DNA of 35,360 nucleotides from positions 1 to 35,360 of IMG/VR virus record IMGVR_UViG_3300021197_001938. One strand, written 5' to 3'. A program made the translations under genes and the position numbers. This DNA is from a virus. The notes under the pieces are model-generated. The model searched no databases and was not told where the DNA came from. It was given only the letters and a program-made list of their open reading frames with translations. This document shows, piece after piece, positions 3,196 through 28,054 of this stretch; position 1 is the stretch's first letter; each line of letters begins with the position of its first letter.

Positions 3196-4667
3196 TGGCT
3201 ATTAAAAAATATTATGCAAACAAAGACAATACAATAACAAGTGCTTTCCAGTCAAACTTGACAACAAGAGCAACAGATGCAAACATGGGCCTATCTGACA
3301 TATTAGAAACATTTTCTATCTATGGTCAAGCTTCTTCTACTTCCACGGAACTAGAAAGAATATTGATTGAGTTCCCTGTTAATCAGATTATAGCTGATAG
3401 GGCAAGCGAGACAATTCCAGAATCTGGAAATGTAAACTTTTATTTAAATATGTATAACGCGCCAAACAATCAAACCACCCCCAGAGATTTAAAATTGGTT
3501 GTACTTCCGATTTCCAGTTCTTGGCAAGAAGGAACGGGACTAGATATGGACCAATATCAAGATGTTTTAGACGGAAATGCAGGATCTTCGTGGTTTACAG
3601 CAAGCCTTGGAACACCTTGGTCACGCCCCGGTGGAGACTACTTAAACAGTCCGGTATTTTCTCAACAATTTTCTGCTGGAAGCGAGGATATGAAGATAAA
3701 CATCACGTCTCTTGTTGAGGAATGGATTGCTGGCACGATTGATAATTACGGTGTCGGTGTACATCTTACATCAAGTCAAGAAGCTTATTTCTCAAACTCT
3801 TCTGGTGTTGACGTGGGTGCTCAACTTTTCAATCCAGACGGTGCTACTGAATCTTATTACACTAAGAAATTTTTTGGAAGAGGTTCCGAATTCTTCTTTA
3901 AAAGACCGACTATCGATGCGATTTGGGACTCTTCTGTAAAAGATGATAGAGGTAACTTCTATGCAAGTTCTTCCTTGCTCCCGGCATCAGAAAACAATAG
4001 AACTATTTATTTATATAATGCAATTGGTGGGCGGCTGAGAGACGTTCCGGGTGCAACTACTCTGGGAGTTAGAATATATAGCGCGGAAACTGGAGGAGAT
4101 CAGATTAATACATCTCCAATCACAGCCGGTAAAGTTTCTACAGGTATTTACTCCGCCTCATTTGCACTTGATACTTCTGCGAGTGTTGTGTACGATCGCT
4201 GGTTTGATTCTGGATTTACCAACTGTTACCACACTGGTACGGTTGAAATAAAAAACCATCAGGCATCTGGATACAATCCTTATCCTAATTACGTAACCAA
4301 TCTTACAAACTTAAGGCCGATCTACTATACTCATGAAACAAATAGATTTAGATTTTATGTTCGCGAAAAAGATTGGAGTCCAACTATTTATACAGTAGCC
4401 ACAGCAAAAACTGATACATTGGTTGTTGAAAGTGGTTCTTATCAAATTCACAGAATAACAGATAATTTGGTTGCAATTCCATATAGTACGGGCAGCGATA
4501 GGGGAACAGAAATGTCTTTCGATGTAAGTGGAAATTATTTTGATTTAAAAATGGATCTTTTAGAACCCGGATATTCATATGGTATTAAATTAGCCTACTA
4601 CGAAGAGACAGTAGGAAGTTATGTTGAACAACCGTATATGTGGAAATTCAGGGTTGAAGAAGTATGA
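3195..4667 (+). CDS. Tail/baseplate structural protein with a DNRLRE-like domain, 490 aa
   Basis: The N-terminal half resembles the DNRLRE (disaggregatase-related) beta-sandwich seen in surface and tail proteins. Visible landmarks are SSWQEGTG at about 108-115, the W-rich and GGD-containing stretch WFTASLGTPWSRPGGDYL at 133-150, and MKINITSLVEEWIAG … NYGVGVHL at 166-191. A second conserved-looking block follows at about 224-255 (KKFFGRGSEFFFKRP, then IWDSSVKDDRGNF). There is no signal peptide or membrane helix. It is translationally coupled on both sides (TAATG with gp6, ATGA with the giant gene). I infer a virion component of the baseplate or its periphery, perhaps sugar-binding; no T4 protein at this position is clearly homologous. 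Confidence 0.75.
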   Translation: MAIKKYYANKDNTITSAFQSNLTTRATDANMGLSDILETFSIYGQASSTSTELERILIEFPVNQIIADRASETIPESGNVNFYLNMYNAPNNQTTPRDLKLVVLPISSSWQEGTGLDMDQYQDVLDGNAGSSWFTASLGTPWSRPGGDYLNSPVFSQQFSAGSEDMKINITSLVEEWIAGTIDNYGVGVHLTSSQEAYFSNSSGVDVGAQLFNPDGATESYYTKKFFGRGSEFFFKRPTIDAIWDSSVKDDRGNFYASSSLLPASENNRTIYLYNAIGGRLRDVPGATTLGVRIYSAETGGDQINTSPITAGKVSTGIYSASFALDTSASVVYDRWFDSGFTNCYHTGTVEIKNHQASGYNPYPNYVTNLTNLRPIYYTHETNRFRFYVREKDWSPTIYTVATAKTDTLVVESGSYQIHRITDNLVAIPYSTGSDRGTEMSFDVSGNYFDLKMDLLEPGYSYGIKLAYYEETVGSYVEQPYMWKFRVEEV

Positions 4668-7600
4668 GTATAAGAGATTTATTTTTAAAAAGCGATAACA
4701 AACTTTTATCAAAAGAGCCAGCAGATCTAAGAAAGGATGCTGAATCAATTGGTAATATAACTGCAACTACAGAAAATAGAAGCAAGTTTATACCTAAAGT
4801 GGATTTTTCGGATCCTGCCAATTTTGCAAACTTTGGATCAGCAGAGTCTTATTATGAAGATGCTATCACGAGAGTTTACGAAAATTATCCTTACGATGGA
4901 TCTTCGAAAGAAAGGCAGGAATATTTAAACGAATCAACTTATATTGATTTGTGGATGCTTGAAAACAAGTATCCTAGAACAACTGGTTACATAATACTTT
5001 CAGCAGAAGATGGCACATCGACCGCTGATGATGACGGCTGGCAAAATCCCAATGTTTCAGAATATATTTCTTTTGTTGGAGGCCCGCATACAGCATCTCA
5101 AGGCATGGTTGGCAAGCCTATAAGCTCTACTTTTGATGATTCAAACAAGTACGACACAGATATCTATAGAGATAAAGGCTTTTCTGGAACAGGTACACGA
5201 GAAAACAATCTTAAAACAAATTTTGATAACGGTGTGACAGTTGAGTTTTGGTTCACCACGGAACAAGTAGCCGTCAGAAAGCATACTGTTTTTGACTTAT
5301 GGAACTCTTCATCCGATTCTGCTTCTTATGGCAGAATTAACGTCGCATATGATAAAGCGTCTTCTAGATTTTCTCTTACTGCACAGTCTGGATCAAGCGG
5401 TATCAATGAAGAGTTGGTAGGGTCAGATTTATCCACTCTGCAGAATTCTTTTCATCATTACGCTATCAGATTTTATAATTCTGGATCAAATTTAAATGTT
5501 GATTTTTATATTGATGGCGATTTGGATGCACAAGAGACATATGCTGGTGAATCTATGGAGGAGGTGACCGGCCCGTTGACAGCGAATATTGGTGCCCTAA
5601 CTTCCCCCTTTGTTGATGCGGGCGGTGTTAACAGAGGTGATATTGGCTGGGGCAAGCTTTCTGGATCTCTAGATGAATTTAGATTTTGGAAAACAAAAAG
5701 AACTTCTGAAGAGATAGGCAGAAACTGGTTTGATCAGGTTTATGGAGGGACTAATACGGATATATCAAATGCGGATCTTGGAGTTTATTTCAAGTTCAAT
5801 GAGGGTATTACCGGAAATTCTTCTATAGACTCTACAGTTTTAGATTATTCTGGCAGAATAACAAATGGTACTTGGACAGGCTACAATACAGAAGCTAGAA
5901 ATACAGGTTCTGCAATCGTTTTAGCAAACGCAGCCATTTCAGAATTCCAAGACCCGATTGTTTACCCGGAACACCCAGATGTTCAATCTGTATTAGCAGA
6001 AATGAAAGCGTCCGGCTCCGCCCATGATTATACAAATAATTCTTCGTTGTACAACGGATTTCCTCTGTGGGTTATCGAAAATGATAACGACAGCAACGGA
6101 GAACTTAAAAAACTTACACAAGTTATGTCAAGTTATTTAGACACTCTTCAACTACAGATTCAGGAATTACCAAAATTACAAAACGTAGATTATTATAGCG
6201 GCTCCTATTCCAAGGAATACCCATTCATGTCAGATCTTCTAGAAGGTAGGGGAATGGTATCAAAAGATATTTTTGCTGATGCTACAGTTTTGGAGCAAAT
6301 TTTCTCTAGATCAGAGACTGATTTATACTCTTCTGACCTGACAGAGGTGAAGAACTTAATTTATAGAAACATTTATAACAATATTTCTTATATTTATAAA
6401 TCAAAGGGCACGGAAAAGTCCTTTAGAAACCTTATTAGATGTTACGGTATTGATGATTCTTTGATTAATCTAAATCTTTACTCCAACAATCTAACTTACG
6501 AACTAGAAAACACTTACCAGTTTGACTCGGAAAAGAAAAGATATGCGGATTTTTATAGTCCAAGTTCTTTCGAGGCCACTGTTTATCAGCAAACTTCTAG
6601 TGCAATTGCCAATAGTGTGTCTTTTATATCTGCATCAGGCGCAGATCAAGAGAAATATAGCTCATTCACACTAGAAGCAGATATAATTTTACCAAAAAAG
6701 AGACTAGAGAGCGATTTAGACCACTTTAGTACAACCTTCTCTACCTCTTCATTATTCGGTTTTCATACAGCAGACAGTTCAAATCCAGAGGACTTTGCAT
6801 GGCCTGCAACAGATTATGACTTAAAAGCTTATGTTGTTCGCCCCCCCGATAATGATAACTTAAAAGATGCCTATTTTTTACTCACAAGTTCATATTTTGG
6901 CTTAAATTTAACAAGCTCCATCATAAAAGATGCTTATGACAACAGGAGATGGAATGTTAATGTTAAATTCTATCCGGAAAAAGCATCAAACCTTGTATCT
7001 GGATCTTCTAACACATCCTATGTCGTAGACTTTTCCGGAATTCAAAAAGATTTAGATGTAGTTGTTGATGAATTTAGTGTTACAGAGAGCGTAGCCACAG
7101 CAGAATTTCTAACACAGCCAAAAAGAATATACGCAGCAGCCCACAGACAGGACTTTAGCGGATCAATTCTGGAAAAAACAGATGTAAAATTGGGATTTGT
7201 TAGATATTGGATGAGTAAGCTGAGCGATTTGGAGACGCAATCTCACGCTCAAGATCCTACAAACTACGGAAAAGAGCACCCATTAAGAGGTATAGGCGTA
7301 TATGACACTACCTTGGGCAACATAGAGGTTCCCCAAGCGAAGACTTTGGCACTAGACTGGGGATGGGATGTGGTTTCCACATCATCAACTGGCGGAACTT
7401 ATGGATTGTTGGATAAATCCTCGGGATCCGCAGAGGATTTAGGCAGGTATGGTTGGCTTTCTAATGTATCAGAGCGACAACATACCGGAATTGGAGATTA
7501 TAATCCTGTGTCGCAAAGGGTTGTTAACGTAGAATACATTCCCGTTGCAAGAAAAAAGAATCCCGAATCTTTAAATCCAACAATGACATCCATAAAAGTA

Positions 7601-10600
7601 ATAAATGAATTCGAAGAAGAGGTCTTTGATAGGAATACTAGGCCGGTTAACTTTTATTATTCTTTAGAAAAGAGTATGTACTCTTCCATTTCCAAAGAAA
7701 TGTTAAGATATTTTGCGTCAATTGTAGATTTCAATAACTTAATTGGCGAACCGGTAAATAGATACCGATCAAATTATAAGGACATGTCCAAGTTAAGGCA
7801 GATTTTCTTTGAAAGTGTTCAAAATGAACCAAAAGTAGAGAAGTTTATTGATTATTATCGCTGGATTGATGAGTCTCTATCCTCAATGTTACAACAATTA
7901 GTCCCTGCTAGCTCTGAAATATCAGAAGGAATTAGAAATACTATTGAAAGTCATGTCCTAGAGAGAAACAAATACAGAAATAAGTTCGCAACTCTTGGTA
8001 AAATAGATACTGATTTAGAAGCTGGGTTATATGGGGTTGAGAGATCTTCATATCCATGGAGATTTGGTACTCCAACCCTCCCTCAGTCTCCGCCTCCTAC
8101 AAATGAACATTGTTTTTGGTGGAGATATAGAGCAGATAGAACAAACGAGAGAATAACATCTGGAGACTCTGCCGTTGATGCCACCAGAAATGCAATTTTA
8201 GCCGCTGTACAAAGCAGTGTAAACAGAAGTTACACTTCTCCCGTTCGCGTGACGATGAAAAAAGAAGAAATTTATGGCTCTGGCTTAAATTCATCAAACA
8301 ATAACATAGCTGATTACTTAAAAAGTTCAATTGGTTTTGGATCCTCGGACGGATTGCTGTTTGAGGCAGGAAAAGTTAAAGACTTTATTGATTGTCTCGA
8401 TGTTATTGACCCTTTAGAGAAGAAAAAATGGTCATATGCTGGACAAAACCAAAAAGATACTTCAGATTATGCCACTTCAGAAGGAGATTTGGTTTCTCCC
8501 TTTGTTGCTGTAAGCTCTTCTGTGACGACAGGTTATAATAGTGAGTTAAATGCTAGCTTTAAACAGGGGTTCTCTATAGAAAACCTTCATATTGATGGGT
8601 ATTCCAATGGGGAATTGCCACTACAAGGTCCATTCACCGAAAAATATGTAGGTGGAAGACAAAACAGGCACGTCGCCTTGAATACCGGAACCGATTCCGC
8701 AGAAAGCAGACCAGAAGCATGGAAACTAGAGTTTACACCATCTCCGGGAATGAAAATAATACATCAACCAGTAAATCAGCCACGAGCAGCACTGTATAGG
8801 GGCCTTACTGCTAAATCTCCATTGAATATTGCGAATATTAAAACAAATCTAACTACAGGAGACGCTGGTAACTACTCAAAAGATTATGAAATTGTCCAGA
8901 CAGTCAGTAGAACAAAGAATAATGTAGCCTACACTAAAGCAGAGGGATTCAATCTTTCTGACATTCCATCACCATACATTGCTGGCATGGATGATTATGC
9001 AAAGCCAAATAGGGGAAGAACAGAACACGTATTTGTTAATCGTTTTTCTTCTCCGGGTTCTCCCGATACTGCAGGAGATTCGAACGGTGGCCCAGCATTA
9101 GACACATTCGCAGCAGAGTACTCTCCATACAACAATATAAACTACAGAAACACAACTACTAGAAACATTTATAAATTGTTGCACGCTTCTCATGTTAATC
9201 AATTTGGATTTTATTCGGATAACTTTGGAATCGGCGCAGGCCCGTCTCAAGTTGGATCCGAAGACTATAGCGGCACAGGAAGCATCTATCAAACAAATAG
9301 AAATCCCATAAAACAACTCAAGGAGTCTGGAGCTACAACAGTTACGGCATCAGTGTACGACAATTATTTTGTACAGCACGCTATTCCTAGATCAGATCTT
9401 CAATATTCTTGGATTACATCTTCCTACACATCTTATGATACATTTGGATACCTACCTTATTCTGGCGAGGTATCTTCATCTACAGGAGAAACCTCGCTTG
9501 TGACATTCTCGTCTGCAAGTGACTTCATCTCATACAAGACAGGAATGTTTGCCCCTGCATTTGGAAAAGATAAATCATCACCGGCAGGTTCTAACTTTTT
9601 GCCAACCGTTTACAACGGATTGAATTATAATGTTTACGAACCTTCCGATAGAGATACAGGCTTTTTGGGATATAAGGAGCAGACTGCAGAACCGAGAGTT
9701 AGAGTTGGTGCCTCTAATTATAAAAATGACACACTGGTTCCTTTGATGACAGGAGATGGCGAAGCCACTATATTAAACGCCCTATTATTAAAAAGAAATG
9801 GACCCTATCAGCATCCAACGTGGAAGCAGATAAGAAACTCTGACAATCCAGTTGTAAGAAATAGAAGGCAGAATGGACTAACGGCGTACAATATTAAAAA
9901 TAGTTCTCAAAATGGAAATGTGGAACAAACAGCAATAATACCAGTTAACAGATTTTCATCAACAAAATTGGTTAAAGACCCGGCAGTAATTGGAAAATAT
10001 AAGCCATTAGAATTCGGCTTAAAGACATCGATGGATTCAAATAATCAAGATGTTACTATAGAGACAGTTAGGGCAGAATGTGTTTATGGAAATCAAATCG
10101 GCAGATTCGCCAACAATCAGATCACATATGATCTCTTAAGAGATAATTTATCTGATAAAGATACTTCATATAGAGCAATATACGATCTCTATTCTGACGG
10201 AAAATTGCAGGATTCTTCAAGCCCAATAGAGGAGCTTGTATATCTAAATTATTCTGAACAAGTATATCCGTCATCTATAAACTGCTACTCTAAAGTAAAT
10301 AGAGAAAGAATTGGATTCAAAAATACTTTCTGGAAAGACTCTAGAGAGGAGAGAACCACTCTTGGTCAAGATAAATTTAATGGAAACAATACACAAGGCG
10401 TATCACGACAACAAAGTGCTTGGGGTCTAGATGCAGCCGAGCAATTCGGTGAGACCTTGGCAATCTCTGCTTATTATGCATTTGATTATAATTCTGGATC
10501 AGCAGGTGAATTGCAAAATCAATACACATTTTTCTTTAGAAAAGGTCTTTTGGATACAAACGGTTCCGCATCGCTTTTGGTCCCGTCGCCTATTTTGTCA

Positions 10601-13345
10601 AGAAAGAATGAAATTAATAGTAAGTATTCTGTTGTAACACCGACAGGCATGGAGACCATAGTTAGTGCCGCAACGAGCACAGTATATTTAACGGACTACG
10701 AGGATGCAGCTGCAACAGGTCCGTTCGCACTTCCATATGGCATACCTTTAGATAGGGGTGGTACAGCAAAGTTTGAAGCACATACTTTGGCAGGATACAT
10801 AAAAGATGGTGTATTTGTTAGTTCTTCCGCCAAGCCTTTCTATGATAAATATGATCAATACAATCTAGAGATGAGACTGAACAACAAAGATATGTCGCTG
10901 GTCCCAGAGTTTAGAATAAGTGAAAATATCGAAAAATATCTAAACGACTCAAACGGATTTGTATCTGATAATGAATCATCTTTTAATATATTTGGAGTTA
11001 ATCAACAAGGAAATCAGAATATTTCCTATACAGATCAGATCATGCAGACAGAGACATACAATGTTCAAGTTGGCGAAATAGCACCTTCTAGTAGTTCTGA
11101 AGATCAATTCTACAAAATATATTCATTCTCCGACTTTATGCAATATTTTGATGTAATCAATGAAGATCATACTGATTATGACTTACCAAAGGGGCTAACA
11201 CTTTCGTGTAAAGCACTGATGAAATTCATTCCTTACGATGGCTTTTATCCAGCTGAACACACATTGGAAATTGCCAATGCTTTCTCGCAGTCTTATTCTC
11301 AATACATAGATTTTACCGGTTCTGGAATTTTAGGTGGAGACGTGACAGACCCACTTAGAACTAGACCAATTTACGAAACAATGTTTTCTCCGGGAATCTT
11401 ATTTAATACGATCAAATCTGGTGTAGCCGTTGATTATCCAGTTTACACCGGGTCTTATGACATTGTAACATACACCACAGGCGGCACAAACACCACCATG
11501 GCAGCTCTTGGAACTGGTTCTAGGGGTGGAAATGGCTGGGATTATAGAATCTCTTTTGAGACCCTTCTAGAGCCGGAAAAGTTAAATAATATTCCAATCA
11601 TGGACATGAACGTAGGTCTTTACACTACCCGGTTGACAGCCTATTCTGATTTTTGCTCTGCCTCATTAGATGCTCCATCTGGAATGAATTCATACAAATT
11701 AATGATGAGTAATTTCTTGGCAGAAGTACCAAGTTTCTTTTTGGAAAATGGTATGACAAGATTTTCATCGAACATGGCAAAGGACATCGCGCCAGATCCG
11801 AACACAACATATGGACTTCGCGTAAAAATGTATAGATCCATGAACAAGGAAAGAGTTATAACTGGCGATTTCATGCCTCCACAGGACGATATTACCGACA
11901 CTTCTTTATTTGAAACAATGACGATGTACAGCCGACCAACGGCTTTCGGCCCACCAGTAGCTGGCTCTGATACAGTAGACGCTGCAGCCCTGCAAGCTGA
12001 CAGTACTTGTGGCATTAACCCATCATTTACTCCCCCTTATTACAATGGAGAATGTTGGGCAGATATTTATTATACAACAGATGCAACTGCCTCTGCAGTG
12101 ACTATAGAAGATATTTTATCATCGGCATCAGTTAACTATTTGAGGTCAGATCCAGAAGGCTCATGGCCAATGTCAACTGCGACGGGTGTAGATCAATATC
12201 CTTACGAAACAGCCGAGACAGCAAATAAATTTTCTATGCAATTATCTGCTTCAATGAACTTATTTGCTAAAGATTCAGCTGGAAATTGGAATATTCAGAC
12301 AAAATTTGAAACACCAATTTTGAACTTTGGAGATAAGACAAAGCGTCCACTTAGTTTCGATAACATCACACTGCCATCTACCGGCGCAGCTGGAGATTCT
12401 ACAGATTGGGATGATGGATATGGTGGACAAACAACAACTCCTATTGGCATTTGGCATCAGTTCGGGTTAGTCCCAGAAGAGAACCAAGGTATTTACGTTT
12501 CAGTTGAGGATATAGGTATTGAATTTTTGAAAAATGCCTCCGAAAGCCTTTCTGATGGAGAAAATACCAAATCCCTTATTGATTTGGTGGGCTTTGAGAG
12601 GGATGTCAAGAAGCTTGGCCAAGTCAAAGACACAAAAACAGTGTACGAATCAGTAGTTGCTGTTCCGTTTAGGGAAGATCGTAATTGCAATAAGGTATTT
12701 TTTGAAATAGAAAAAACGTCAAAAGACTACGCTGATTTGGAAAGCAAAATGAATAAGTATGTTTTCCCTCCCCAGTTTGATTTCTTAAGAAATGGAAACG
12801 CCACTCCCTTAGCTATGTATGTATTTGAGTTTGAACACACATTCGATAGAGATGATTTATCTCACATTTGGCAGAACATTTCTCCTAAATTTGGGGAATC
12901 TTACAAGACAGCGGTTTCATCAATTTCTCATCCTTTATTAGAAGGGCAAAGACTTTCAGACTTATCCGGACGCATAAAGTGGATGGTTTTCAAAGTAAAA
13001 CAGAGAGCAAGAACAAATTATTATGAAAACTTGGTTAACCCACCCGGTCCATCTGGCGCATCAATGGCCACTTCAAACGATCAGAAGTTTAGTTATAACT
13101 GGCCATATGATTATTTCTCAATGGTTGAGTTTGCAAAAGTGGAAGCATCCGTTAATTTTGGAAAAGAGCCTACTCAAGAAATAGAGAGCAAGCCTACTGT
13201 CTCTGGAGATTACAAGAGAGAGAACGTAACAAAAGATATGACCGCAGTGTCCTCTAAGACGACAGACGAGTTGAAAAAGATAGACTCGGAAGCGTCTGCA
13301 TTCGTAAAGGGCAACAGATACTTAGATAAAGATAAATTAGGATAA
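4664..13345 (+). CDS. Giant virion structural protein, 2893 aa, with LamG/concanavalin-like domain
   Basis: A single uninterrupted frame of 8.7 kb. Residues about 55-110 carry FGSAESYYEDAITRVYENYP and later LENKYPRTTGYI, a motif I associate with large tail proteins of marine myoviruses. Residues about 185-405 look like a LamG/concanavalin A-like jelly roll: VTVEFWFTTE, HHYAIRFYNSGSNLNVDFYI, LSGSLDEFRFWKTKRTSEEI, then a YFKFNEG … LDYSGR tail. The remaining ~2,450 residues are rich in Ser, Asn, Tyr and Asp and suit beta-structured virion proteins, but I cannot assign domains. It starts with ATGA overlap to the previous gene. A host-surface-binding or baseplate-wedge scaffold role is inference; the size far exceeds any T4 baseplate protein. 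Confidence 0.85.
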   Translation: MSIRDLFLKSDNKLLSKEPADLRKDAESIGNITATTENRSKFIPKVDFSDPANFANFGSAESYYEDAITRVYENYPYDGSSKERQEYLNESTYIDLWMLENKYPRTTGYIILSAEDGTSTADDDGWQNPNVSEYISFVGGPHTASQGMVGKPISSTFDDSNKYDTDIYRDKGFSGTGTRENNLKTNFDNGVTVEFWFTTEQVAVRKHTVFDLWNSSSDSASYGRINVAYDKASSRFSLTAQSGSSGINEELVGSDLSTLQNSFHHYAIRFYNSGSNLNVDFYIDGDLDAQETYAGESMEEVTGPLTANIGALTSPFVDAGGVNRGDIGWGKLSGSLDEFRFWKTKRTSEEIGRNWFDQVYGGTNTDISNADLGVYFKFNEGITGNSSIDSTVLDYSGRITNGTWTGYNTEARNTGSAIVLANAAISEFQDPIVYPEHPDVQSVLAEMKASGSAHDYTNNSSLYNGFPLWVIENDNDSNGELKKLTQVMSSYLDTLQLQIQELPKLQNVDYYSGSYSKEYPFMSDLLEGRGMVSKDIFADATVLEQIFSRSETDLYSSDLTEVKNLIYRNIYNNISYIYKSKGTEKSFRNLIRCYGIDDSLINLNLYSNNLTYELENTYQFDSEKKRYADFYSPSSFEATVYQQTSSAIANSVSFISASGADQEKYSSFTLEADIILPKKRLESDLDHFSTTFSTSSLFGFHTADSSNPEDFAWPATDYDLKAYVVRPPDNDNLKDAYFLLTSSYFGLNLTSSIIKDAYDNRRWNVNVKFYPEKASNLVSGSSNTSYVVDFSGIQKDLDVVVDEFSVTESVATAEFLTQPKRIYAAAHRQDFSGSILEKTDVKLGFVRYWMSKLSDLETQSHAQDPTNYGKEHPLRGIGVYDTTLGNIEVPQAKTLALDWGWDVVSTSSTGGTYGLLDKSSGSAEDLGRYGWLSNVSERQHTGIGDYNPVSQRVVNVEYIPVARKKNPESLNPTMTSIKVINEFEEEVFDRNTRPVNFYYSLEKSMYSSISKEMLRYFASIVDFNNLIGEPVNRYRSNYKDMSKLRQIFFESVQNEPKVEKFIDYYRWIDESLSSMLQQLVPASSEISEGIRNTIESHVLERNKYRNKFATLGKIDTDLEAGLYGVERSSYPWRFGTPTLPQSPPPTNEHCFWWRYRADRTNERITSGDSAVDATRNAILAAVQSSVNRSYTSPVRVTMKKEEIYGSGLNSSNNNIADYLKSSIGFGSSDGLLFEAGKVKDFIDCLDVIDPLEKKKWSYAGQNQKDTSDYATSEGDLVSPFVAVSSSVTTGYNSELNASFKQGFSIENLHIDGYSNGELPLQGPFTEKYVGGRQNRHVALNTGTDSAESRPEAWKLEFTPSPGMKIIHQPVNQPRAALYRGLTAKSPLNIANIKTNLTTGDAGNYSKDYEIVQTVSRTKNNVAYTKAEGFNLSDIPSPYIAGMDDYAKPNRGRTEHVFVNRFSSPGSPDTAGDSNGGPALDTFAAEYSPYNNINYRNTTTRNIYKLLHASHVNQFGFYSDNFGIGAGPSQVGSEDYSGTGSIYQTNRNPIKQLKESGATTVTASVYDNYFVQHAIPRSDLQYSWITSSYTSYDTFGYLPYSGEVSSSTGETSLVTFSSASDFISYKTGMFAPAFGKDKSSPAGSNFLPTVYNGLNYNVYEPSDRDTGFLGYKEQTAEPRVRVGASNYKNDTLVPLMTGDGEATILNALLLKRNGPYQHPTWKQIRNSDNPVVRNRRQNGLTAYNIKNSSQNGNVEQTAIIPVNRFSSTKLVKDPAVIGKYKPLEFGLKTSMDSNNQDVTIETVRAECVYGNQIGRFANNQITYDLLRDNLSDKDTSYRAIYDLYSDGKLQDSSSPIEELVYLNYSEQVYPSSINCYSKVNRERIGFKNTFWKDSREERTTLGQDKFNGNNTQGVSRQQSAWGLDAAEQFGETLAISAYYAFDYNSGSAGELQNQYTFFFRKGLLDTNGSASLLVPSPILSRKNEINSKYSVVTPTGMETIVSAATSTVYLTDYEDAAATGPFALPYGIPLDRGGTAKFEAHTLAGYIKDGVFVSSSAKPFYDKYDQYNLEMRLNNKDMSLVPEFRISENIEKYLNDSNGFVSDNESSFNIFGVNQQGNQNISYTDQIMQTETYNVQVGEIAPSSSSEDQFYKIYSFSDFMQYFDVINEDHTDYDLPKGLTLSCKALMKFIPYDGFYPAEHTLEIANAFSQSYSQYIDFTGSGILGGDVTDPLRTRPIYETMFSPGILFNTIKSGVAVDYPVYTGSYDIVTYTTGGTNTTMAALGTGSRGGNGWDYRISFETLLEPEKLNNIPIMDMNVGLYTTRLTAYSDFCSASLDAPSGMNSYKLMMSNFLAEVPSFFLENGMTRFSSNMAKDIAPDPNTTYGLRVKMYRSMNKERVITGDFMPPQDDITDTSLFETMTMYSRPTAFGPPVAGSDTVDAAALQADSTCGINPSFTPPYYNGECWADIYYTTDATASAVTIEDILSSASVNYLRSDPEGSWPMSTATGVDQYPYETAETANKFSMQLSASMNLFAKDSAGNWNIQTKFETPILNFGDKTKRPLSFDNITLPSTGAAGDSTDWDDGYGGQTTTPIGIWHQFGLVPEENQGIYVSVEDIGIEFLKNASESLSDGENTKSLIDLVGFERDVKKLGQVKDTKTVYESVVAVPFREDRNCNKVFFEIEKTSKDYADLESKMNKYVFPPQFDFLRNGNATPLAMYVFEFEHTFDRDDLSHIWQNISPKFGESYKTAVSSISHPLLEGQRLSDLSGRIKWMVFKVKQRARTNYYENLVNPPGPSGASMATSNDQKFSYNWPYDYFSMVEFAKVEASVNFGKEPTQEIESKPTVSGDYKRENVTKDMTAVSSKTTDELKKIDSEASAFVKGNRYLDKDKLG

Positions 13346-14339: not shown

Positions 14340-16900
14340 TGACAATTGTAACAAAACATTTACTAAAAGCAAGAGAAAAACTAAGATTAAGAAGAGAGGA
14401 AGAGACACCAGAGAGTGCCAGTATTGCCTTATCTAAATTAACTTTAACAAATAATAATTTACAGTTTGGATTATCTGCAGAAGTTATTTTATCTATAGAT
14501 ATAATTGAAAATAGTCCCGCTTATCAAACGAGTGAAGGATCCAACATATATATAAAGACATTAAAGACAGAAGATAAAACTGTTAAAGAGGCTTTAATAA
14601 ATTCTTCTCAAAATTATCATGAATTTATGAAGGTAGTCTCGGATAATCAAGGCAAGATAGAACAAATTGATACACCGTACAACAACAAGGGCACAAGGAG
14701 AGAGAAGACACTACAAACTACAGAGATTATCTCCTTCAAACCTTTGGCTTTAAAAGAAAAAAACAGTCCAGAAAATTTATCTATATTCTCTGTTGCGGTT
14801 ATAGAAAGCGAGCAAAGCAAAAAAGCTCTCGCAATATCGAAAATAGTCTTTCAAGACATCATAGTGGGAAATGAATTGTTATCCACTGGAAACATAAACG
14901 ATATAAGAAGTATAAAATTGGAATCTTATTTAGATTTTGATATTGTTGGAGCAGCTGATGATAACAATAAGGCTTACTTTTCTGATCAGTTTATTAGTCT
15001 AGATAAAGATGGGTATTTAAAGTTTATTTTTATGTGGGATAAGATTAGATTTCTACAAGAAATGTCTTTGTTCGGAAATATTCTCAGGAACGGCTCCATG
15101 GAGGAGACAAGAAGAAAAATTATAGAAGATTCCAGAATATCAAATATCAAAATATCCCGAAGACGAGTTAAAAGAAGCATTAATGGATTCTCAAATTTCA
15201 ATAGTAATCAAAAGAATGAGGTAGTAATATCTTCTTCTGACGATGATTCCGGAGATCTACTAAAAAATAGAAAAACTAATCTCAATACAGGAAAGATACA
15301 GTCTGAAATATCAAGCATGGATAACATTAAGAACTCAAAAGATTATATAGTATTTGCAATCAATGACTATGCTCCGAGAACAATAAAATATGGAACATAT
15401 CAATACTTTATAGACGTAGAAGTTCAAGATGGTATGTTGAGATACCTTCTAGACTCCCTATCTGAATTGAGGGGCATCAACAAAACCTTTCTGGAGTACC
15501 AATCAACGTTTTTTTCTCCGAATCCTGACACAAAAACAAAAACTCTGGAAGGTGTTGGTAAGATTTTAGAGATATTATTCACTTTAGGAAAGTTTTCAGC
15601 ACCAGAAAAGGGTCGTATCGAGAGGGAACTAAGCTCTTTGATGAGATTTATAGATGGATTTGAGACACTTATCTCTTTTAACGATGAATTTATGAATAAA
15701 ATTTCGTATGCCTTATCAAAAAGAGGTGTATCATCAACAAAAGGGAAGGATGCCACATACAGAAAGAACGTTAGTAAGCTATTTTTCTTGCAAGATCATC
15801 AAAAATTCTCAGAAATTATAGATTTTTCTGACTTATTGAGGCAAAAAGATGAATATTTGGACATCGAAGCCCCGGATACCGTTGGAATCGCTACTTTTTC
15901 TGAGAATTCTATAAAAGATAGGTTCATGGAAGAGTTTGAGAAGAATATTAACTTCAAAGGCGATTATGACGGCATTAATTTCTCTGATCTAAACGAGAAA
16001 CTGACGGAAGACAATCTGAATGTAACACAGAATGCAGAAATCTTTGATTTAAAGTCTAATTTCTTCTCTTATTTGTCGCCAGCATCAGTTTTTGTCGGCG
16101 GAAAAGACGTAAAAAACAACAGCTTTAATCCAAATGACTATACTCCGGACGATAATTCTTCTTTGGATATGATGGCTAGCGAATTATTATCAAAAGGGAT
16201 AAAAATAATGTCTCCCGTATCTATTGGACAAAACAATCGCTCGCGAAAAGAAGCGACAAGATGTTCAGAAAGTATATTCGGAGAAAATGACATCATAAAT
16301 AATCAGAAAACCTATGAAAATCAATCCGAGTTGGACACTTCTGCTAATTCTGAAAGGCACTATAAATCTTTGAGCGACTCAAAAACGTTAGCAACGGGAA
16401 TAGGAAGGCATTATAACAACTTTAATTTAAAAAAAGAGGATTATAATCTAAGTTCTCCAAGTAATTTCTTAAAAAAGAAGAAAAGCAACGAAAACATTGA
16501 ACTTTTAAACTCAGAACTTGAAGATATGCCAAATCAAGTTAGGGTTCTTTTTGGATCTAATTCAGAATTGGTAAAGAACAGGTGGAACTTAACGGAAAAC
16601 GACCTCTTCATGAACCCACAATCAGCAAAGATGATGCAGGAAAACTATAGCAACCTAATCAAAGTGGAAGTATTGAGTGATTTTTCAGATGATGCCTCTG
16701 GTTCAAAGAATATAAAATTACCAGTTTTCAGAAAATTAAAAATAGAGGATATAGTTGCATTGAAATCCGGCGAGACATTGTTTTGCAAGACCTATATCTT
16801 AAATGATCAAACTTTAGGAATAGGACAGCGTAATATTTCTGACAATGAGTCTATTTATTACAACAAATATTTTCTTATTAAAAAAGAAGAGAGTGAATAA
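14339..16900 (+). CDS. Large uncharacterised tail-region protein, 853 aa
   Basis: I chose ATG 14339, which overlaps the preceding TAA (TAATG) and has AGAGGA about 10 nt upstream, rather than a TTG three codons earlier. The N-terminus is basic and helical (KHLLKAREKLRLRREEE), the middle is charged (ISRRRVKRSINGFSNF), and a helical stretch near residues 400-450 (GVGKILEILFTLGKF … ELSSLMRFIDGFETLISF) is followed by an extended polar region. No signal peptide, transmembrane helix, or catalytic motif is apparent. I do not recognise the family. Its position in an unbroken chain of translationally coupled tail genes suggests a virion or tail-assembly role. Confidence 0.7.
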   Translation: MTIVTKHLLKAREKLRLRREEETPESASIALSKLTLTNNNLQFGLSAEVILSIDIIENSPAYQTSEGSNIYIKTLKTEDKTVKEALINSSQNYHEFMKVVSDNQGKIEQIDTPYNNKGTRREKTLQTTEIISFKPLALKEKNSPENLSIFSVAVIESEQSKKALAISKIVFQDIIVGNELLSTGNINDIRSIKLESYLDFDIVGAADDNNKAYFSDQFISLDKDGYLKFIFMWDKIRFLQEMSLFGNILRNGSMEETRRKIIEDSRISNIKISRRRVKRSINGFSNFNSNQKNEVVISSSDDDSGDLLKNRKTNLNTGKIQSEISSMDNIKNSKDYIVFAINDYAPRTIKYGTYQYFIDVEVQDGMLRYLLDSLSELRGINKTFLEYQSTFFSPNPDTKTKTLEGVGKILEILFTLGKFSAPEKGRIERELSSLMRFIDGFETLISFNDEFMNKISYALSKRGVSSTKGKDATYRKNVSKLFFLQDHQKFSEIIDFSDLLRQKDEYLDIEAPDTVGIATFSENSIKDRFMEEFEKNINFKGDYDGINFSDLNEKLTEDNLNVTQNAEIFDLKSNFFSYLSPASVFVGGKDVKNNSFNPNDYTPDDNSSLDMMASELLSKGIKIMSPVSIGQNNRSRKEATRCSESIFGENDIINNQKTYENQSELDTSANSERHYKSLSDSKTLATGIGRHYNNFNLKKEDYNLSSPSNFLKKKKSNENIELLNSELEDMPNQVRVLFGSNSELVKNRWNLTENDLFMNPQSAKMMQENYSNLIKVEVLSDFSDDASGSKNIKLPVFRKLKIEDIVALKSGETLFCKTYILNDQTLGIGQRNISDNESIYYNKYFLIKKEESE

Positions 16901-21943: not shown

Positions 21944-23092
21944 ATGTCTTTTAAAAAGTTTGAAAAAAAAGACATTCTTCGTAATGTTATTGAAACGCAT
22001 CCCAATATTCGTTTCGATATTTATGATTCTAAGTTGTATTACAATAATAGGACTCAGTTGAGTGGAGCATTTTCTGAAGATGTCCGAAACGTTCCTTCTG
22101 GATTTATATCACTATATGAATTAAACATTGATAAATCTGATGGTCAGAATAACTTCATTTATCCTTTTATAGAAAAAGGTTCAAGTCTTCTTAAATTTAA
22201 AGCAGGAACGAAAGTTGATTTTGACGAAAGCTCGTATGGCGACCAGCTGACGGGATCCTATCCTCTATCTGCGTCAATCACTAGAGACGTTTTAACGGGA
22301 AGCGCAGACCTTAAATTTAATGCTCTGAAGAACACAATTGATTACTATTCTATAATGAGCAGTCAATATACGAATGTCGCCGAATACACCACTTTCAATT
22401 CAGCTAGTTTGATATCTATCCCATCTATATTTTACGGATCTTCGATAGAAAAGGGTTCAATTGATTTAAAATTTTATGTCTCCGGAACCCTCATTGGACA
22501 ATTGAAAGACGAGAATAACAACGGCGAGCTAATACAGGTTGGCCCTTCTGGTAGTGTCGGTTCTGGATCAACAGCCGGAATCGCCCTATACAATGAGGGC
22601 TTCCTTTTCCTCACAGGAAGTTGGGACTTGAGTAATGGTTCACATACAGAACCTTATGATGGGGCAAAGCCTCCTTCTTGGATTTATTACGCCGTTGGAG
22701 CAAATGATGGCACTCCGACTGGAACCATACCAAGCTCCAGCTATACCATGGAAATGAACGGAACAAATTATGTGCCATCTTACACGATGTTTGCACATGC
22801 TAATTTGGGAGAGTTTAATCACTCAAACAATCCAACTTATATAGAATACGGGCAAAGTAAGCAGACCCTATCAGGAGCCTATATTTATGAAGAGCCAACA
22901 GACTTATTAATTAAAAACTCAGTAAGTTCTTCATATGTTGATCCCACGGGATCTTTCGAAAAGACAACTTACATTTCAAAGATTGGTATCTACGATAAAG
23001 ATAAGAATTTGATTGCAGTTGCAACAACTTCTACTCCAGTTAAGAAGACACAAAATAGAAACCTCACTTTTAAACTAAAATTGGATATTTAA
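21944..23092 (+). CDS. Tail structural protein, 382 aa, paralogue of the preceding gene
   Basis: The C-terminus contains LGEFNHSNNPTYIEYG and, after an insertion of roughly 20-30 residues, TTYISKIGIYDKDKNLIAVA and LTFKLKLDI, aligning with the end of the 344-aa protein. The N-terminal half is different and carries a Ser/Gly-rich turn (VGPSGSVGSGSTAG, about 196-209). A strong ribosome site (AGGAAGAGTAGGAA) precedes ATG 21944. The stop overlaps the ATG of the RuvC-like gene (TAATG), linking the last structural gene to the DNA-metabolism island. I infer a duplicated virion module whose N-terminal parts have diverged; the function of each is unknown. Confidence 0.75.
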   Translation: MSFKKFEKKDILRNVIETHPNIRFDIYDSKLYYNNRTQLSGAFSEDVRNVPSGFISLYELNIDKSDGQNNFIYPFIEKGSSLLKFKAGTKVDFDESSYGDQLTGSYPLSASITRDVLTGSADLKFNALKNTIDYYSIMSSQYTNVAEYTTFNSASLISIPSIFYGSSIEKGSIDLKFYVSGTLIGQLKDENNNGELIQVGPSGSVGSGSTAGIALYNEGFLFLTGSWDLSNGSHTEPYDGAKPPSWIYYAVGANDGTPTGTIPSSSYTMEMNGTNYVPSYTMFAHANLGEFNHSNNPTYIEYGQSKQTLSGAYIYEEPTDLLIKNSVSSSYVDPTGSFEKTTYISKIGIYDKDKNLIAVATTSTPVKKTQNRNLTFKLKLDI

Positions 23093-23604
23093 TGATTCTA
23101 GGATTAGATGTAAGCACAAGCATCATCGGTGTTTGTTTACTTAAAGATAATAAAATTGTCAAAGCTGATTATATCGACTTAAGAAAAACGACGGGCCTAT
23201 TACACAAGGCACAAGTTGTTGAAGATTATATAAATCATAACCTAAAACATGTTGAAATAGAGCACATCTTTATTGAGCAAGCTCTCATGTTTTTCAGAAG
23301 AGGTGGATCTACTGCAAAAACAATGGCAACACTTCAAAACTTCAATGGTGTGGTCTCTTGGCTGTGTTTCAAGATGTTAGAATTAGAGCCAAATTATGTA
23401 ACCCCAATTTCAGCACGCTCGAAATGTGGCATCAAAGTACCAAGAGGTAAAAAGGCTAAAGAAGTGGTAATGGAGCATTTTTTGGAAACTGGCGAATTTC
23501 CAATAGATTATACCAGATACGGAAATGTACAGAAATATTGCTATGATATCGCAGATGCTATAGTAGTTTCAAGAGCAGGCTACTATTTATTGCAGGAGAA
23601 ATAA
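23092..23604 (+). CDS. RuvC-like Holliday junction resolvase / RNase H-fold nuclease
   Basis: The 170-aa protein has the RuvC layout and length: strand-1 GLDVSTSIIGVC with Asp6, IFIEQAL with Glu62, a basic central part (RGKKAKEVV, 118-126), and YDIADAIVVS with Asp152 and Asp155. These would be the D-E-D-D metal ligands. RuvC enzymes cut four-way DNA junctions symmetrically; in a phage this would resolve recombination or replication branches before packaging, a job done in T4 by the unrelated endonuclease VII. ATG 23092 overlaps the upstream structural gene's stop, and primase and gp47/46 functions follow, consistent with DNA metabolism. A substrate other than Holliday junctions cannot be excluded. 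Confidence 0.85.
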   Translation: MILGLDVSTSIIGVCLLKDNKIVKADYIDLRKTTGLLHKAQVVEDYINHNLKHVEIEHIFIEQALMFFRRGGSTAKTMATLQNFNGVVSWLCFKMLELEPNYVTPISARSKCGIKVPRGKKAKEVVMEHFLETGEFPIDYTRYGNVQKYCYDIADAIVVSRAGYYLLQEK

Positions 23605-23606
23605 AA

Positions 23607-23909
23607 ATGGCCAGAAAATTAACAAATTCAATTTTAGAAAAACTCATTAAAGAACAGATTAGTGGCCTAGGAGACCTATCTGGGAAAATGACAAAAGCCC
23701 AGCAAGTCAACAAGGAAAGAGAAAGGATAAATTCTATTGATGGTGCAGAAACCAAAGGCATAGATAATACGGAGAGAGCAATCATTCAAAGTGTAGAAGA
23801 CGCACTCACCATAATCGCGTCAGAAGGAAATTTAAATCGCTTTAAAGACCGACTAGAGTCTTTTTTACAAAATATAATTAACGATCTTGGTCTTGGGGAT
23901 GAAGAATAA
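23607..23909 (+). CDS. Small helical unknown protein, 100 aa, with KLTxxxLxxLIxEQI N-terminus
   Basis: Almost entirely helical and charged, with no membrane segment or Cys/His metal site. It begins MARKLTNSILEKLIKEQISG, similar to the first 16 residues of the 116-aa protein at 31151 (MKLTKNKLKQIIREEL), a head-motif I recall from other small marine phage proteins. The C-terminal half (ERAIIQSVEDALTIIASEGN, then FKDRLESFLQNIINDLGLG) suggests a helical bundle. AGGAGA nine nt before ATG 23607, inside the end of the RuvC-like gene, is a strong ribosome site. The stop is nine bases from the -35 element of the primase promoter. Function unknown; the neighbourhood suggests DNA metabolism. Confidence 0.7.
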   Translation: MARKLTNSILEKLIKEQISGLGDLSGKMTKAQQVNKERERINSIDGAETKGIDNTERAIIQSVEDALTIIASEGNLNRFKDRLESFLQNIINDLGLGDEE

Positions 23910-23917
23910 AATAATCC

Positions 23918-23946
23918 TTGACACGTAGAAAATAGTGTGTTATATT
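23918..23946 (+). promoter_or_regulatory. Near-consensus sigma70 promoter with extended -10
   Basis: TTGACA (23918-23923) is followed by exactly 17 bases and TATATT (23941-23946), with TGT immediately before the -10 giving an extended -10 (TGn). This matches the bacterial housekeeping consensus in all -35 positions and five of six -10 positions. The predicted start point, seven bases after the -10, falls on the A of the primase ATG at 23953. It is the clearest promoter in the window and separates primase and the gp47-gp46 gene from the upstream late structural block, so it is probably an early or middle phage promoter read by host RNA polymerase. Confidence 0.75.
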
Positions 23947-23952
23947 AATAGT

Positions 23953-24888
23953 ATGAATGAGAAACTTTCTATACTTCACAACATACTTGGTAAAAGCTAT
24001 AAGTCAAATGATGAGCATTTGTTTGCGTGTCCTTATTGTGGCCATCATAAGAATAAATTTTCTGTCAATGTTGAGAAGAATGTTTATAAATGCTGGATTT
24101 GTGATGCACGAGGTAAGAATCTATTTCGTGTAATTCGTCGTTTTGGTACTTTTTCTCAACAAGAGAAGTGGAAAGAGCTTAGTGGAGATACTCAAGATCT
24201 AGGAGAGTTCGATAGGTTATTTGAAATACCTGTTCGGGAAGAACAAATAGAACAAATTCTAGAAATGCCGCAAGGCTTTAGGACTTTGACATCTGTATCT
24301 AACAGTAGATCATATTTGAAGGCAATGAGATACCTTTCGCAAAGAGGTATTAAAGCGACAGATATTTTAAAGTGGAAAATGGGGTATACAACAGAGGGAA
24401 ACTTTAAAAATAGAATAATCATCCCTTCATTTAATTCTAAGGGTAATTTGAATTATTTTGTAGCCCGAACATTCTCTGGAGACTATAGAAGATACATGAA
24501 CCCTCCAGTGTCAAGAAATATTATTTTTAACGAGCTTTATGTAGATTTTGAAGAAGAAGTGACGATTGTCGAGGGAGCCTTTGATGCGATTAAGGCAGAA
24601 AACGCCATACCCATTTTGGGATCAACTATAAGAGAGACATCAAAATTGTTTCAAAAGATAGTAACCAATGATACTCCAGTCTTGTTAGCTCTGGATCCAG
24701 ATGCGAGAAAGAAGTCAGAGTCAATTAAAAAGTTATTTTTAAAATATGGAATAGAAGTAAGAGAAGTAGAATATCCTGATGAGAGAGATATAGGGGATAT
24801 GTCCCGAGAAGAAGTTTCAAACTTAAGTCAAAAAGCCAATTTTGTTCAGAGCAGTGATAGCCTGATCAATGCAATTTCCGCCATTTAG
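23953..24888 (+). CDS. 61: DNA primase, DnaG/T4 gp61-like
   Basis: A 311-aa protein with an N-terminal zinc-binding site (Cys26, Cys29 with nearby His31/His32, Cys47, Cys50: ACPYCGHHKN … YKCWICDARG) and a TOPRIM domain (IVEGAFDAIKA with Glu207; LLALDPDARKK with Asp248 and Asp250). It would make RNA primers with the replicative helicase at the fork. T4 gp61 is of similar size. I chose ATG 23953: a GTG six codons upstream (23935) lies inside the promoter spacer and also lacks a Shine-Dalgarno. The ATG itself has no ribosome site and coincides with the predicted transcription start, so translation may be from a leaderless mRNA. The gp47-gp46 gene follows after 13 bases. Confidence 0.88.
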   Translation: MNEKLSILHNILGKSYKSNDEHLFACPYCGHHKNKFSVNVEKNVYKCWICDARGKNLFRVIRRFGTFSQQEKWKELSGDTQDLGEFDRLFEIPVREEQIEQILEMPQGFRTLTSVSNSRSYLKAMRYLSQRGIKATDILKWKMGYTTEGNFKNRIIIPSFNSKGNLNYFVARTFSGDYRRYMNPPVSRNIIFNELYVDFEEEVTIVEGAFDAIKAENAIPILGSTIRETSKLFQKIVTNDTPVLLALDPDARKKSESIKKLFLKYGIEVREVEYPDERDIGDMSREEVSNLSQKANFVQSSDSLINAISAI

Positions 24889-24901: not shown

Positions 24902-27900
24902 TTGAAGTTTGCTCATATTGCAGATACACACATTAAGAACTTGAAGTATCACCATGAATACGGTATTGTTTTTGAAAAGCTCTACAAGACCCTTAGAGAA
25001 GAGAATGTAGATTATATTGTCCATTGTGGGGATATTGCACATACTAAGACACAAATTTCACCAGAATTTGTGGAAATGTGTACTAAGTTTTTTAGAAATT
25101 TGGCAGATATTGCACCAACATATATTATTTTAGGAAACCATGATGGTAATCTTAAAAATTCCAGCAGGCAAGATGCCCTCACTCCTATCGCAGAAGCTTT
25201 GGAGCACCCAAATCTCCACTTGTTAAAGGACTCTGGAGAGGTGGTATTAGATAATTTCGCTGCCTTGAATGTTTTGTCTGTCTTTGATGAGGATAATTGG
25301 GTAACACCTTCAGATCCAGATAAGGTGAATATAGCCTTATATCACGGGTCTATTTCTGGCGTAAAAACAGACACCGGATATATAATGACTCACGGTGAAC
25401 ACCCTATCGAAATTTTTGAGGGCCATGATTATGCCTTCTTGGGAGACATTCATAAAACAAATCAGATTTTAGATGATGATGGTCGTGTGCGCTATTGTGG
25501 CTCTACGGTGCAGCAGAACCACGGAGAGACAAACGATAAAGGGTATCTTGTTTGGGATATCAAGGGAAAAGAGGACTTCACATGCAAGCATATTGTTTTA
25601 GAAAACCCCATTCCTTTTGTTACAATTAATTTAACTCCGAAGGGAAAAATGCCAAAGGGAGTTCAAGTCCCTGAAGGATGTCGTCTCCGTTTGGTTACTC
25701 AAAACAATCTTCCTCTGGATGTAATGCGAAGAGCAACAGATGTGGCAAAAAGAAGATTCAATCCAGTGGCGATTACTCGTCTAAATAGATCACAGGGCGA
25801 ACGTGGCACAGTACAAGACATGGCCAGTGATTTAGAAGCTCAAGACTTGAGAGATATTGAAGTTCAAGAGAAACTTATTAAAGAATATCTAAAAGACTAT
25901 GAAGTCGAAGAAAATCTCATGGACAAAGTGCTATCACTTAATTCAAAATATAACAAGATCGCAGAAGACAACGAAGAGATTTCAAGAAACGTCAATTGGA
26001 AGCTGCGATCTCTCGAGTTTGACAATCTTTTTAATTATGGAAGTTCTAATTCTATAAATTTTGAGAACTTGAACGGTATTGTTGGCATCTTTGGAAAGAA
26101 TTATTCTGGAAAATCCAGCATCATTGATTCATTGTTATTCACGATGTTTAATTCTACATCAAAAAACGACAGAAAGAACTTAAATGTAATTAACCAGAAT
26201 AAGGAAGAGTGTTTTGGAAAGGCAACGATTTCTATTGGAAATCTTGACTATACAATTGAGAGATCTGCCACAAAATATGTCAAAAAGCTAAAGGGCGAAA
26301 CTACTCTAGAGGCAAAGACTAATGCAGATTTTAGTGTATATTGCCCAATAGATGATGATCATGAAAGTCTTAACGGGACAACCAGAAACGAAACTGACAA
26401 AAACATTCGTAAAGTATTTGGAAATCTTGATGATTTCCTATATTCCTCGATGGCTAGCCAGTTAGATTCCTTATCTTTTATTAAGGAGGGGTCAACAAAA
26501 AGAAAAGAAATTCTGGCAAACTTTCTTGATCTTAAGTTCTTCGATAGCAAATACAAGCTAGCTAACGATGATTCGGCCCCTATTTCAATTGAGTTAAGGA
26601 AATTGCAAGATAAGGATTTCAATCAGGAAATCCTAGAAGTGAAGATGGACTTAAGTGAAAAAGAAGCAGAATTAAAAAACCAAAAGGAACTCTGTAAAGA
26701 GTACAAGCAGAAATCAAAAGATTGTAACGAAAGAGTGGCGATTATCAGGGAAAAGATTCGTTCAATTCCGGCAGAAGTCATTGATGTCGCTAGGGTGCGA
26801 AAAGACTTAAACAGAAAGAAAAGCCAGATGGTGAGCACTCAAGATCAGATTCAGACAGACAAGGGAGAAAGAGACTCCAAAAAGAACGAATATCAGGCAA
26901 TTTGTGATTTTCTTGGCACCTACTCAAAAGATGATCTTTATGGGGAAAGAGAAAATATTGAAAATTTGCGAAATGACATTGTTGGGTTGAATGGAAAACT
27001 GAAAAAAGAGGACGAAGAGCGCAAAAGAAACCAAAAGAGAGTCCAGTTGTTGGATGGCATTCCATGCGGCACGTCCTTTCCTACCTGCAAATTCATCAAG
27101 GATGCTCTCGTCGCGGAAGCAAATATACCAGAAAATCAAAAGAGAATAAATTCAATTCAAGATAGTATCAATTTGATTGATGAACAGATTAAATCTCTTG
27201 ATCCAAAGCTGGTGGAAACAAAAATCGGCGCATATGAAAAAATCTTATCCGAAAGAGATACTTTGTCAAATAACATTACAAACTTGGATTTGAAAATTGA
27301 CAAGAATAAAGCTTGTGTAGCAACTTTACTGGTTGAGATTGAAAGACTTGAAGATAAAGTTTCTGAATATGAAACGAACAAAGATGCAATTGAAAACTTG
27401 GAAAGCCTAAATTCACAATTGGCATCTTTGGAGTTTGATCAGAAGAATTATGAAATAAAGTGTGAAGAATGTAACAACAACTTTTTGAACCTTTATAAAG
27501 AGATTGGATCTGCGGAGCAAAAAGTGAAGCAAATCACAGATCAAAAAGAATCTTTCGATAATCTTCAAGAGCAATATTCTGCATTTGATCTTTATAAGCA
27601 GTGCATGCATCCTAATGGGATTGCTTTTGACGTAATTCGCAAGAAGTTGCCAGTCATTAACGAAGAAATTGGAAAAATTCTGTCAAATATTGTAGATTTT
27701 GAGGTTTTCTTTGAGGATGATGGTAAGCGTTTGGATATTTTTATCAAACACCCTCTTTACGACCCGCGACCTTTGGAGATGGGATCTGGAGCAGAAAAGA
27801 CAATTTCAGCTATGGCAATTCGGCTAGCCCTATTAAGTGTATCTAGCTTGCCTAAAGGGGATATTTTTGTTCTGGACGAACCGGGCACTGCATTGGATGA

Positions 27901-28054
27901 AGAAAACATGCAAGGCTTTGTAGACATTCTGTCTATTATCCGAAATTATTTTAAAACAGTTTTATTAATCTCGCATCTTGACACGTTGAAAGACTGTGTT
28001 GACATGCAAATAACAATTGACAAAAAAGACGGCTATGCATCCGTTAATGCATAA
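24902..28054 (+). CDS. 47-46: Fused SbcD/gp47 nuclease and SbcC/gp46 (Rad50-like) ATPase, 1050 aa
   Basis: Residues 1-~340 are a calcineurin-type Mre11/SbcD nuclease: ADTH (Asp8, His10), CGDIAH (Asp44), LGNHDG (Asn79, His80), YHGS (His148) and GDIH (181-184). From ~366 a Rad50/SbcC/gp46 ATPase begins: Walker A GKNYSGKS (398-405), long coiled-coil arms (~620-930) around a hook-like Cys722-x6-Cys729 (IPCGTSFPTCKF), signature MGSGAEKT (~960) and Walker B IFVLDEPG (~987). T4 makes these as two proteins that form the end-resection complex feeding recombination-dependent replication. Here no stop or start separates them (the join is about residues 340-366), so a 1:1 complex is covalently fixed. TTG start with strong AGGAGA. 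It lies directly after primase, sharing its promoter. Confidence 0.88.
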   Translation: MKFAHIADTHIKNLKYHHEYGIVFEKLYKTLREENVDYIVHCGDIAHTKTQISPEFVEMCTKFFRNLADIAPTYIILGNHDGNLKNSSRQDALTPIAEALEHPNLHLLKDSGEVVLDNFAALNVLSVFDEDNWVTPSDPDKVNIALYHGSISGVKTDTGYIMTHGEHPIEIFEGHDYAFLGDIHKTNQILDDDGRVRYCGSTVQQNHGETNDKGYLVWDIKGKEDFTCKHIVLENPIPFVTINLTPKGKMPKGVQVPEGCRLRLVTQNNLPLDVMRRATDVAKRRFNPVAITRLNRSQGERGTVQDMASDLEAQDLRDIEVQEKLIKEYLKDYEVEENLMDKVLSLNSKYNKIAEDNEEISRNVNWKLRSLEFDNLFNYGSSNSINFENLNGIVGIFGKNYSGKSSIIDSLLFTMFNSTSKNDRKNLNVINQNKEECFGKATISIGNLDYTIERSATKYVKKLKGETTLEAKTNADFSVYCPIDDDHESLNGTTRNETDKNIRKVFGNLDDFLYSSMASQLDSLSFIKEGSTKRKEILANFLDLKFFDSKYKLANDDSAPISIELRKLQDKDFNQEILEVKMDLSEKEAELKNQKELCKEYKQKSKDCNERVAIIREKIRSIPAEVIDVARVRKDLNRKKSQMVSTQDQIQTDKGERDSKKNEYQAICDFLGTYSKDDLYGERENIENLRNDIVGLNGKLKKEDEERKRNQKRVQLLDGIPCGTSFPTCKFIKDALVAEANIPENQKRINSIQDSINLIDEQIKSLDPKLVETKIGAYEKILSERDTLSNNITNLDLKIDKNKACVATLLVEIERLEDKVSEYETNKDAIENLESLNSQLASLEFDQKNYEIKCEECNNNFLNLYKEIGSAEQKVKQITDQKESFDNLQEQYSAFDLYKQCMHPNGIAFDVIRKKLPVINEEIGKILSNIVDFEVFFEDDGKRLDIFIKHPLYDPRPLEMGSGAEKTISAMAIRLALLSVSSLPKGDIFVLDEPGTALDEENMQGFVDILSIIRNYFKTVLLISHLDTLKDCVDMQITIDKKDGYASVNA

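Follow-up and report, generated by a model that had tools for sequence, protein, structure and literature searches.

The DNA analysed here (the window; 35,360 nucleotides from an IMG/VR record) represents part of a T4-like myovirus genome, with nearly all genes on one strand. The genes include those for a baseplate wedge, a tail-fibre-like protein, terminase and portal. Embedded among these structural genes are three others, encoding a RuvC-like resolvase, a DNA primase and an SbcD-SbcC-like fused nuclease. Their coordinates are listed in Table 1, together with those of the elements described below. The nuclease joins SbcD and SbcC homologous parts in one reading frame of 1050 aa. Elsewhere in the window, positions 4664-13345 encode a 2893-aa protein with a PF13385 concanavalin-like lectin domain near the N-terminus and no other Pfam matches.

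Table 1. Features of the primase locus and octamer sites in the window.
Feature	Position	Strand	Match or remark
Octamer ACTATTTA	859, 4002, 4383, 19964, 23582, 30468	+	
RuvC-like Holliday junction resolvase	23092..23604	+	PHROG 159, E=1e-9; direct upstream neighbour of the primase in many relatives
100-aa ORF between RuvC and promoter	23607..23909	+	No PHROG match
−35 hexamer TTGACA	23918..23923	+	
17-base spacer	23924..23940	+	3′ end is the extended −10 element TGT (23938-23940)
−10 hexamer TATATT	23941..23946	+	
Discriminator AATAGT	23947..23952	+	Six bases; pyrimidine at −1; no Shine-Dalgarno sequence
Predicted +1 and primase start codon ATG	23953..23955	+	
DNA primase	23953..24888	+	311 aa; zinc-binding N-terminus; PHROG 47, E=1e-45
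SbcD-SbcC-like fused nuclease	24902..28054	+	PHROG 100 and 77; TTG start; Shine-Dalgarno energy −7.3

The PHROG 47 profile match covers residues 12-292 of the primase, i.e. most of the protein. When 24 primase members were aligned, residues C26, C29, C47, C50, E207, D248 and D250 were invariant. By family resemblance, the cysteines would bind zinc and the acidic residues would have catalytic-type roles. The 100-aa ORF that lies upstream in the window is missing at the primase junction in relatives where RuvC directly adjoins.

The primase gene is immediately preceded by a sequence with a TTGACA-like −35 element, a spacer within the range of 16-18 bases, a TGn motif and a TATAAT-like −10 element, as expected of a σ70-type extended −10 promoter. 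The sequence-only reading had placed +1 of this promoter at the first base of the primase ATG, and both its coordinates and its arithmetic are right. The last base of the −10 element is counted as −7. This follows the rules of E. coli, which may not be those of the host; a host search among genome contigs gave mixed MAG matches only, and no host was inferred. One match from that search (L394, a WOR-3 MAG) was, by eye, leaderless too.

The primase promoter is the top σ70-type site between positions 16000 and 35360, with 11 of 12 hexamer bases and the TG. The same region holds 61 promoter-like sites, compared to 56.6 +/- 6.9 expected, which is chance level. Allowing up to 2 mismatches, the extended −10 pattern has one occurrence in the window, with 0.9 expected. 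Since promoter-like sites arise by chance at this base composition, the site alone is not significant, and the window alone proves little. Simple arithmetic gives a chance of ~3e-4 that a site this good falls exactly on one of ~25 gene starts.

No Shine-Dalgarno (SD) sequence precedes the primase ATG, as had been claimed. At +0.1 kcal/mol, the SD energy ahead of 23953 is weaker than at any other start in the window. The accompanying statement, that most other genes have strong ribosome sites, holds for the majority (−3 to −9) and fails for the starts at 118, 14330, 29816 and 31516, which are weak. An alternative GTG start at 23935 was considered and rejected: in several relatives there are in-frame stops between the GTG and the ATG, and homologous proteins begin at the ATG. 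In most of the relatives, an in-frame stop close upstream makes the ATG or GTG at +1 the only possible primase start.

A protein search found 37 loci with relatives of the primase, and 22 distinct promoter-bearing upstream regions were compared. Primase identity among these falls to about 40%. The TATAnT hexamer, the 17-base spacer, the six-base gap before the start codon and the pyrimidine at −1 are each present in 22 of 22. TG is found in 21 and TTGAC in 20. All but one start with ATG at +1, the exception having GTG. Most spacer bases drift and carry little information, whilst the spacer length is fixed. The register is off by 1-2 bases in L103 and L150, and the −10 elements of L115 and L148 are weak. 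A different layout occurs at L008/L009 (about 1800-2001), where a small membrane-type ORF sits between the promoter and the primase. There, the promoter and a leader with an SD (GGAG) precede the small ORF, whose end region overlaps the primase start.

In many relatives the RuvC stop codon lies 15-24 bases before the ATG, within the promoter. This would fit a real promoter that owes its register to compaction: wedged in between RuvC and the primase, it would have no space for a leader, and coupling or 70S scanning on read-through RNA would supply most of the primase. We consider this unlikely. The register is the same in the window and six relatives (L006, L010, L012, L025, L082 and L130), where the upstream neighbour is a different ORF ending 31-52 bases away; in those six, the upstream ORF has no match to the window RuvC at the cut-off used. 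In addition, some relatives have a leader of 8-13 nt with an SD at the same junction, which shows that room can be made, and promoter-to-start distances of 3-7 do not occur among the primase relatives. As judged from these comparisons, the promoter and the primase start codon act as one unit. Within this mostly marine family of T4-like phages, even very distant relatives share the register, which therefore looks selected, as a control feature, and not coincidental.

Start-site choice at bacterial promoters varies by 1-2 bases. The promoter could thus fire with +1 a few bases away, giving a leader of 1-5 nt or an AUG that lacks its A, and the displaced registers of L103 and L150 fit such a shift. 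This is a good deal less probable than compaction. All 22 regions combine a pyrimidine at −1 with a purine at +1, which fits a preferred start exactly at the start codon. Moreover, a leader of 1-3 nt would still be without an SD, and would behave as leaderless.

To place the primase promoter among others of its type, we scanned ten contigs of the lineage (about 755 kb). Away from the primase, 25 promoters lie within 40 nt of a gene. Their leaders are 13-39 nt and nearly all have an SD, compared to a distance of 0 at the primases. Among protein genes in the ten contigs, register 0 was seen only at the primase. A candidate for a second leaderless gene (G020:20578; L040:578-834) was discarded, as it is really a tRNA array (Met, Asn, Arg) and its 72-aa ORF is spurious; this array is headed by the same promoter type at register 0. 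Four contigs contain several promoters of this type, 45 on the coding strand and 0 on the other. This bias supports the promoters being real. Membership in this lineage-wide set, confined to the coding strand, supports the site upstream of the primase being a promoter. In G020, a 193-kb relative, the primase promoter is the sole one of its type between 39.3 and 124.7 kb.

Some structural genes near the primase bear a different upstream motif. Regions upstream of genes are enriched for the octamer ACTATTTA (often AACTATTTAT), which occurs nearly only on the coding strand and often lies 25-45 nt before an SD and ATG. The split between the coding and the other strand is 32:1 in G020 (L039-L048), 15:0 in G012 (L049-L054), 7:0 in G001 and 6:0 in the window. 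The octamer is a candidate for the late promoter of the lineage. The T4 late promoter TATAAATA shows no enrichment in the window.

An alignment-based search for distant relatives extended the comparison to about 110 primase loci. Three designs of the primase start were found. In the first, the gene is leaderless and there is no SD. The second has the short leader and SD noted above. The third has no promoter, and an SD usually lies within the end of the upstream gene. Median SD energies are +0.6, −6.1 and −5.6 kcal/mol respectively, and the leaderless class differs from the rest with p=8e-13, a value not corrected for relatedness. The start codon is ATG in 27 of 28 distinct relatives of the leaderless class and GTG in the other. 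On a tree of 100 rows, the leaderless label requires 9 changes, or at least 6 if only strong promoters are counted; gains and losses are not separable. A paired test corrected for relatedness has 4 independent pairs of leaderless and other loci, too few for significance. Leaderless genes show neither less structure at the 5′ end nor a higher A content in their first codons. One cultured relative, Microcystis phage Mel-JY01 (L080), has a terminator-like hairpin and then TTGCAC-17-TATATT upstream of position 1453, five bases before the annotated primase ATG. Its primase is possibly near-leaderless.

A scan of IMG/VR for the pattern in exact register returned, among the matches listed, T4-like DNA polymerases, exonucleases, a thymidylate synthase and others. 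For promoters that played no part in the selection, the set chosen on a different spacing has an ATG at six bases more often than at neighbouring distances (9 among the matches listed, for ORFs of at least 60 aa). The excess is less clear in a second promoter set (5 among the matches listed). In both sets, starts with the ATG at six bases are without an SD (median energies of 0.7 and 0.2 versus about −6). The gp43-type DNA polymerase of other marine T4-like phages (L403-L482) was followed further. TTGAC-17-TGnTATAnT with an ATG at +1 is found in 37 of 45 distinct upstream regions, although the search query was itself picked for its register, so that its close relatives are not independent. These polymerases range from near-identical down to about 54% identity, and all cases in the same register have a pyrimidine at −1. 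The leaderless register is absent from the cultured relatives Methylophilales phage Melnitz and cyanophage (gp43) and from the PA5oct and XaC1 exonucleases.

The background of promoter-like sites, at chance level overall and with the 2-mismatch pattern expected about once in the window, might suggest that a promoter-like string has simply arisen in AT-rich sequence before an ATG. Such an accident is exceedingly improbable, since the arrangement is conserved exactly among 22 distinct relatives and reappears in separate clades and a second gene family. The leaderless transcript proposed in the sequence-only reading is well supported, as a prediction, by the exact register and SD absence in divergent relatives and by recurrence on the tree.

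From the promoter, its exact register, the missing SD, and their conservation and recurrence, all apparent in the sequence, we infer the following route of primase expression. Positions 23918-23955 form a host-type, σ70-like extended −10 promoter that runs directly into the start codon of the primase. RNA polymerase would start at the A of the ATG, or within 1-2 bases, to give a leaderless and SD-free primase mRNA. The 70S ribosome and initiator tRNA would then bind the 5′ AUG directly, as they do on the λ cI mRNA. In this way, the primase would get its own early expression, apart from late transcription of its neighbours. Given its place among structural genes, and the lack of another such promoter in about 85 kb of G020, own early expression is the most likely arrangement; the early timing is suggested by the promoter type and by that same gene position. 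Overall, we put a probability of roughly 80% on a host-type promoter producing a leaderless primase mRNA that is read by 70S ribosomes, so that a replication gene is expressed independently of its structural neighbours. The SbcD-SbcC-like nuclease probably shares the message by co-transcription, and read-through RNA from upstream may carry the primase as well. Leaderless messages are stimulated by initiator tRNA and (p)ppGpp and inhibited by high IF3 (PMC9031893). By analogy, host-state-dependent control of the primase is conceivable, which is speculation.

More broadly, leaderless initiation could be a dedicated and repeatedly selected route for replication genes (primase and gp43-type DNA polymerase) in uncultured marine T4-like phages, set apart from the SD-led bulk and used by 70S ribosomes at a low or host-state-dependent rate. 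We offer this tentatively, and rate it as somewhat less probable than its opposite. Whether or not it holds, a promoter class is described for uncultured marine phages, and one gene junction offers a natural comparative series of leaderless, short leader with SD, and promoterless starts. With this series, it becomes testable when selection favours leaderless over SD-led initiation.

Leaderless messages as such are already known from many bacteria (PMC3160421). Our search of the open-access literature, by title or abstract, turned up no phage replication gene described as leaderless. What appears to be new, on the sequence comparisons made here, is a conserved and recurrent leaderless arrangement at such genes. 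DnaG-like primases of SPO1-type and other phages (PHROG 47) are homologous to the primase of the window and likewise lie near nuclease or resolvase genes. However, in SPO1, Flavobacterium phage immuto and LR756508, no leaderless promoter was seen upstream of the primase. The λ cI mRNA, a leaderless phage transcript (PMC5230787; PMC9031893), usually serves as the model for natural messages of this kind. It is made from PRM and, like the message predicted here for the primase, starts at the AUG without an SD and is synthesised by host RNA polymerase. The two differ in that cI regulates lysogeny in a temperate phage, whereas the present case concerns a replication gene of T4-like phages, with a cassette kept over deep divergence. 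In TA-led leaderless bacterial genes, the start is preceded, at a distance of about 10-12 bp, by a −10-like signal (PMC3160421). As at the primase, the −10-like hexamer ends just before the start codon and there is no SD. Those genes were predicted in bacteria; here, the signal includes a full −35 element, the TG and a fixed spacer, in phage genomes that are otherwise SD-led.
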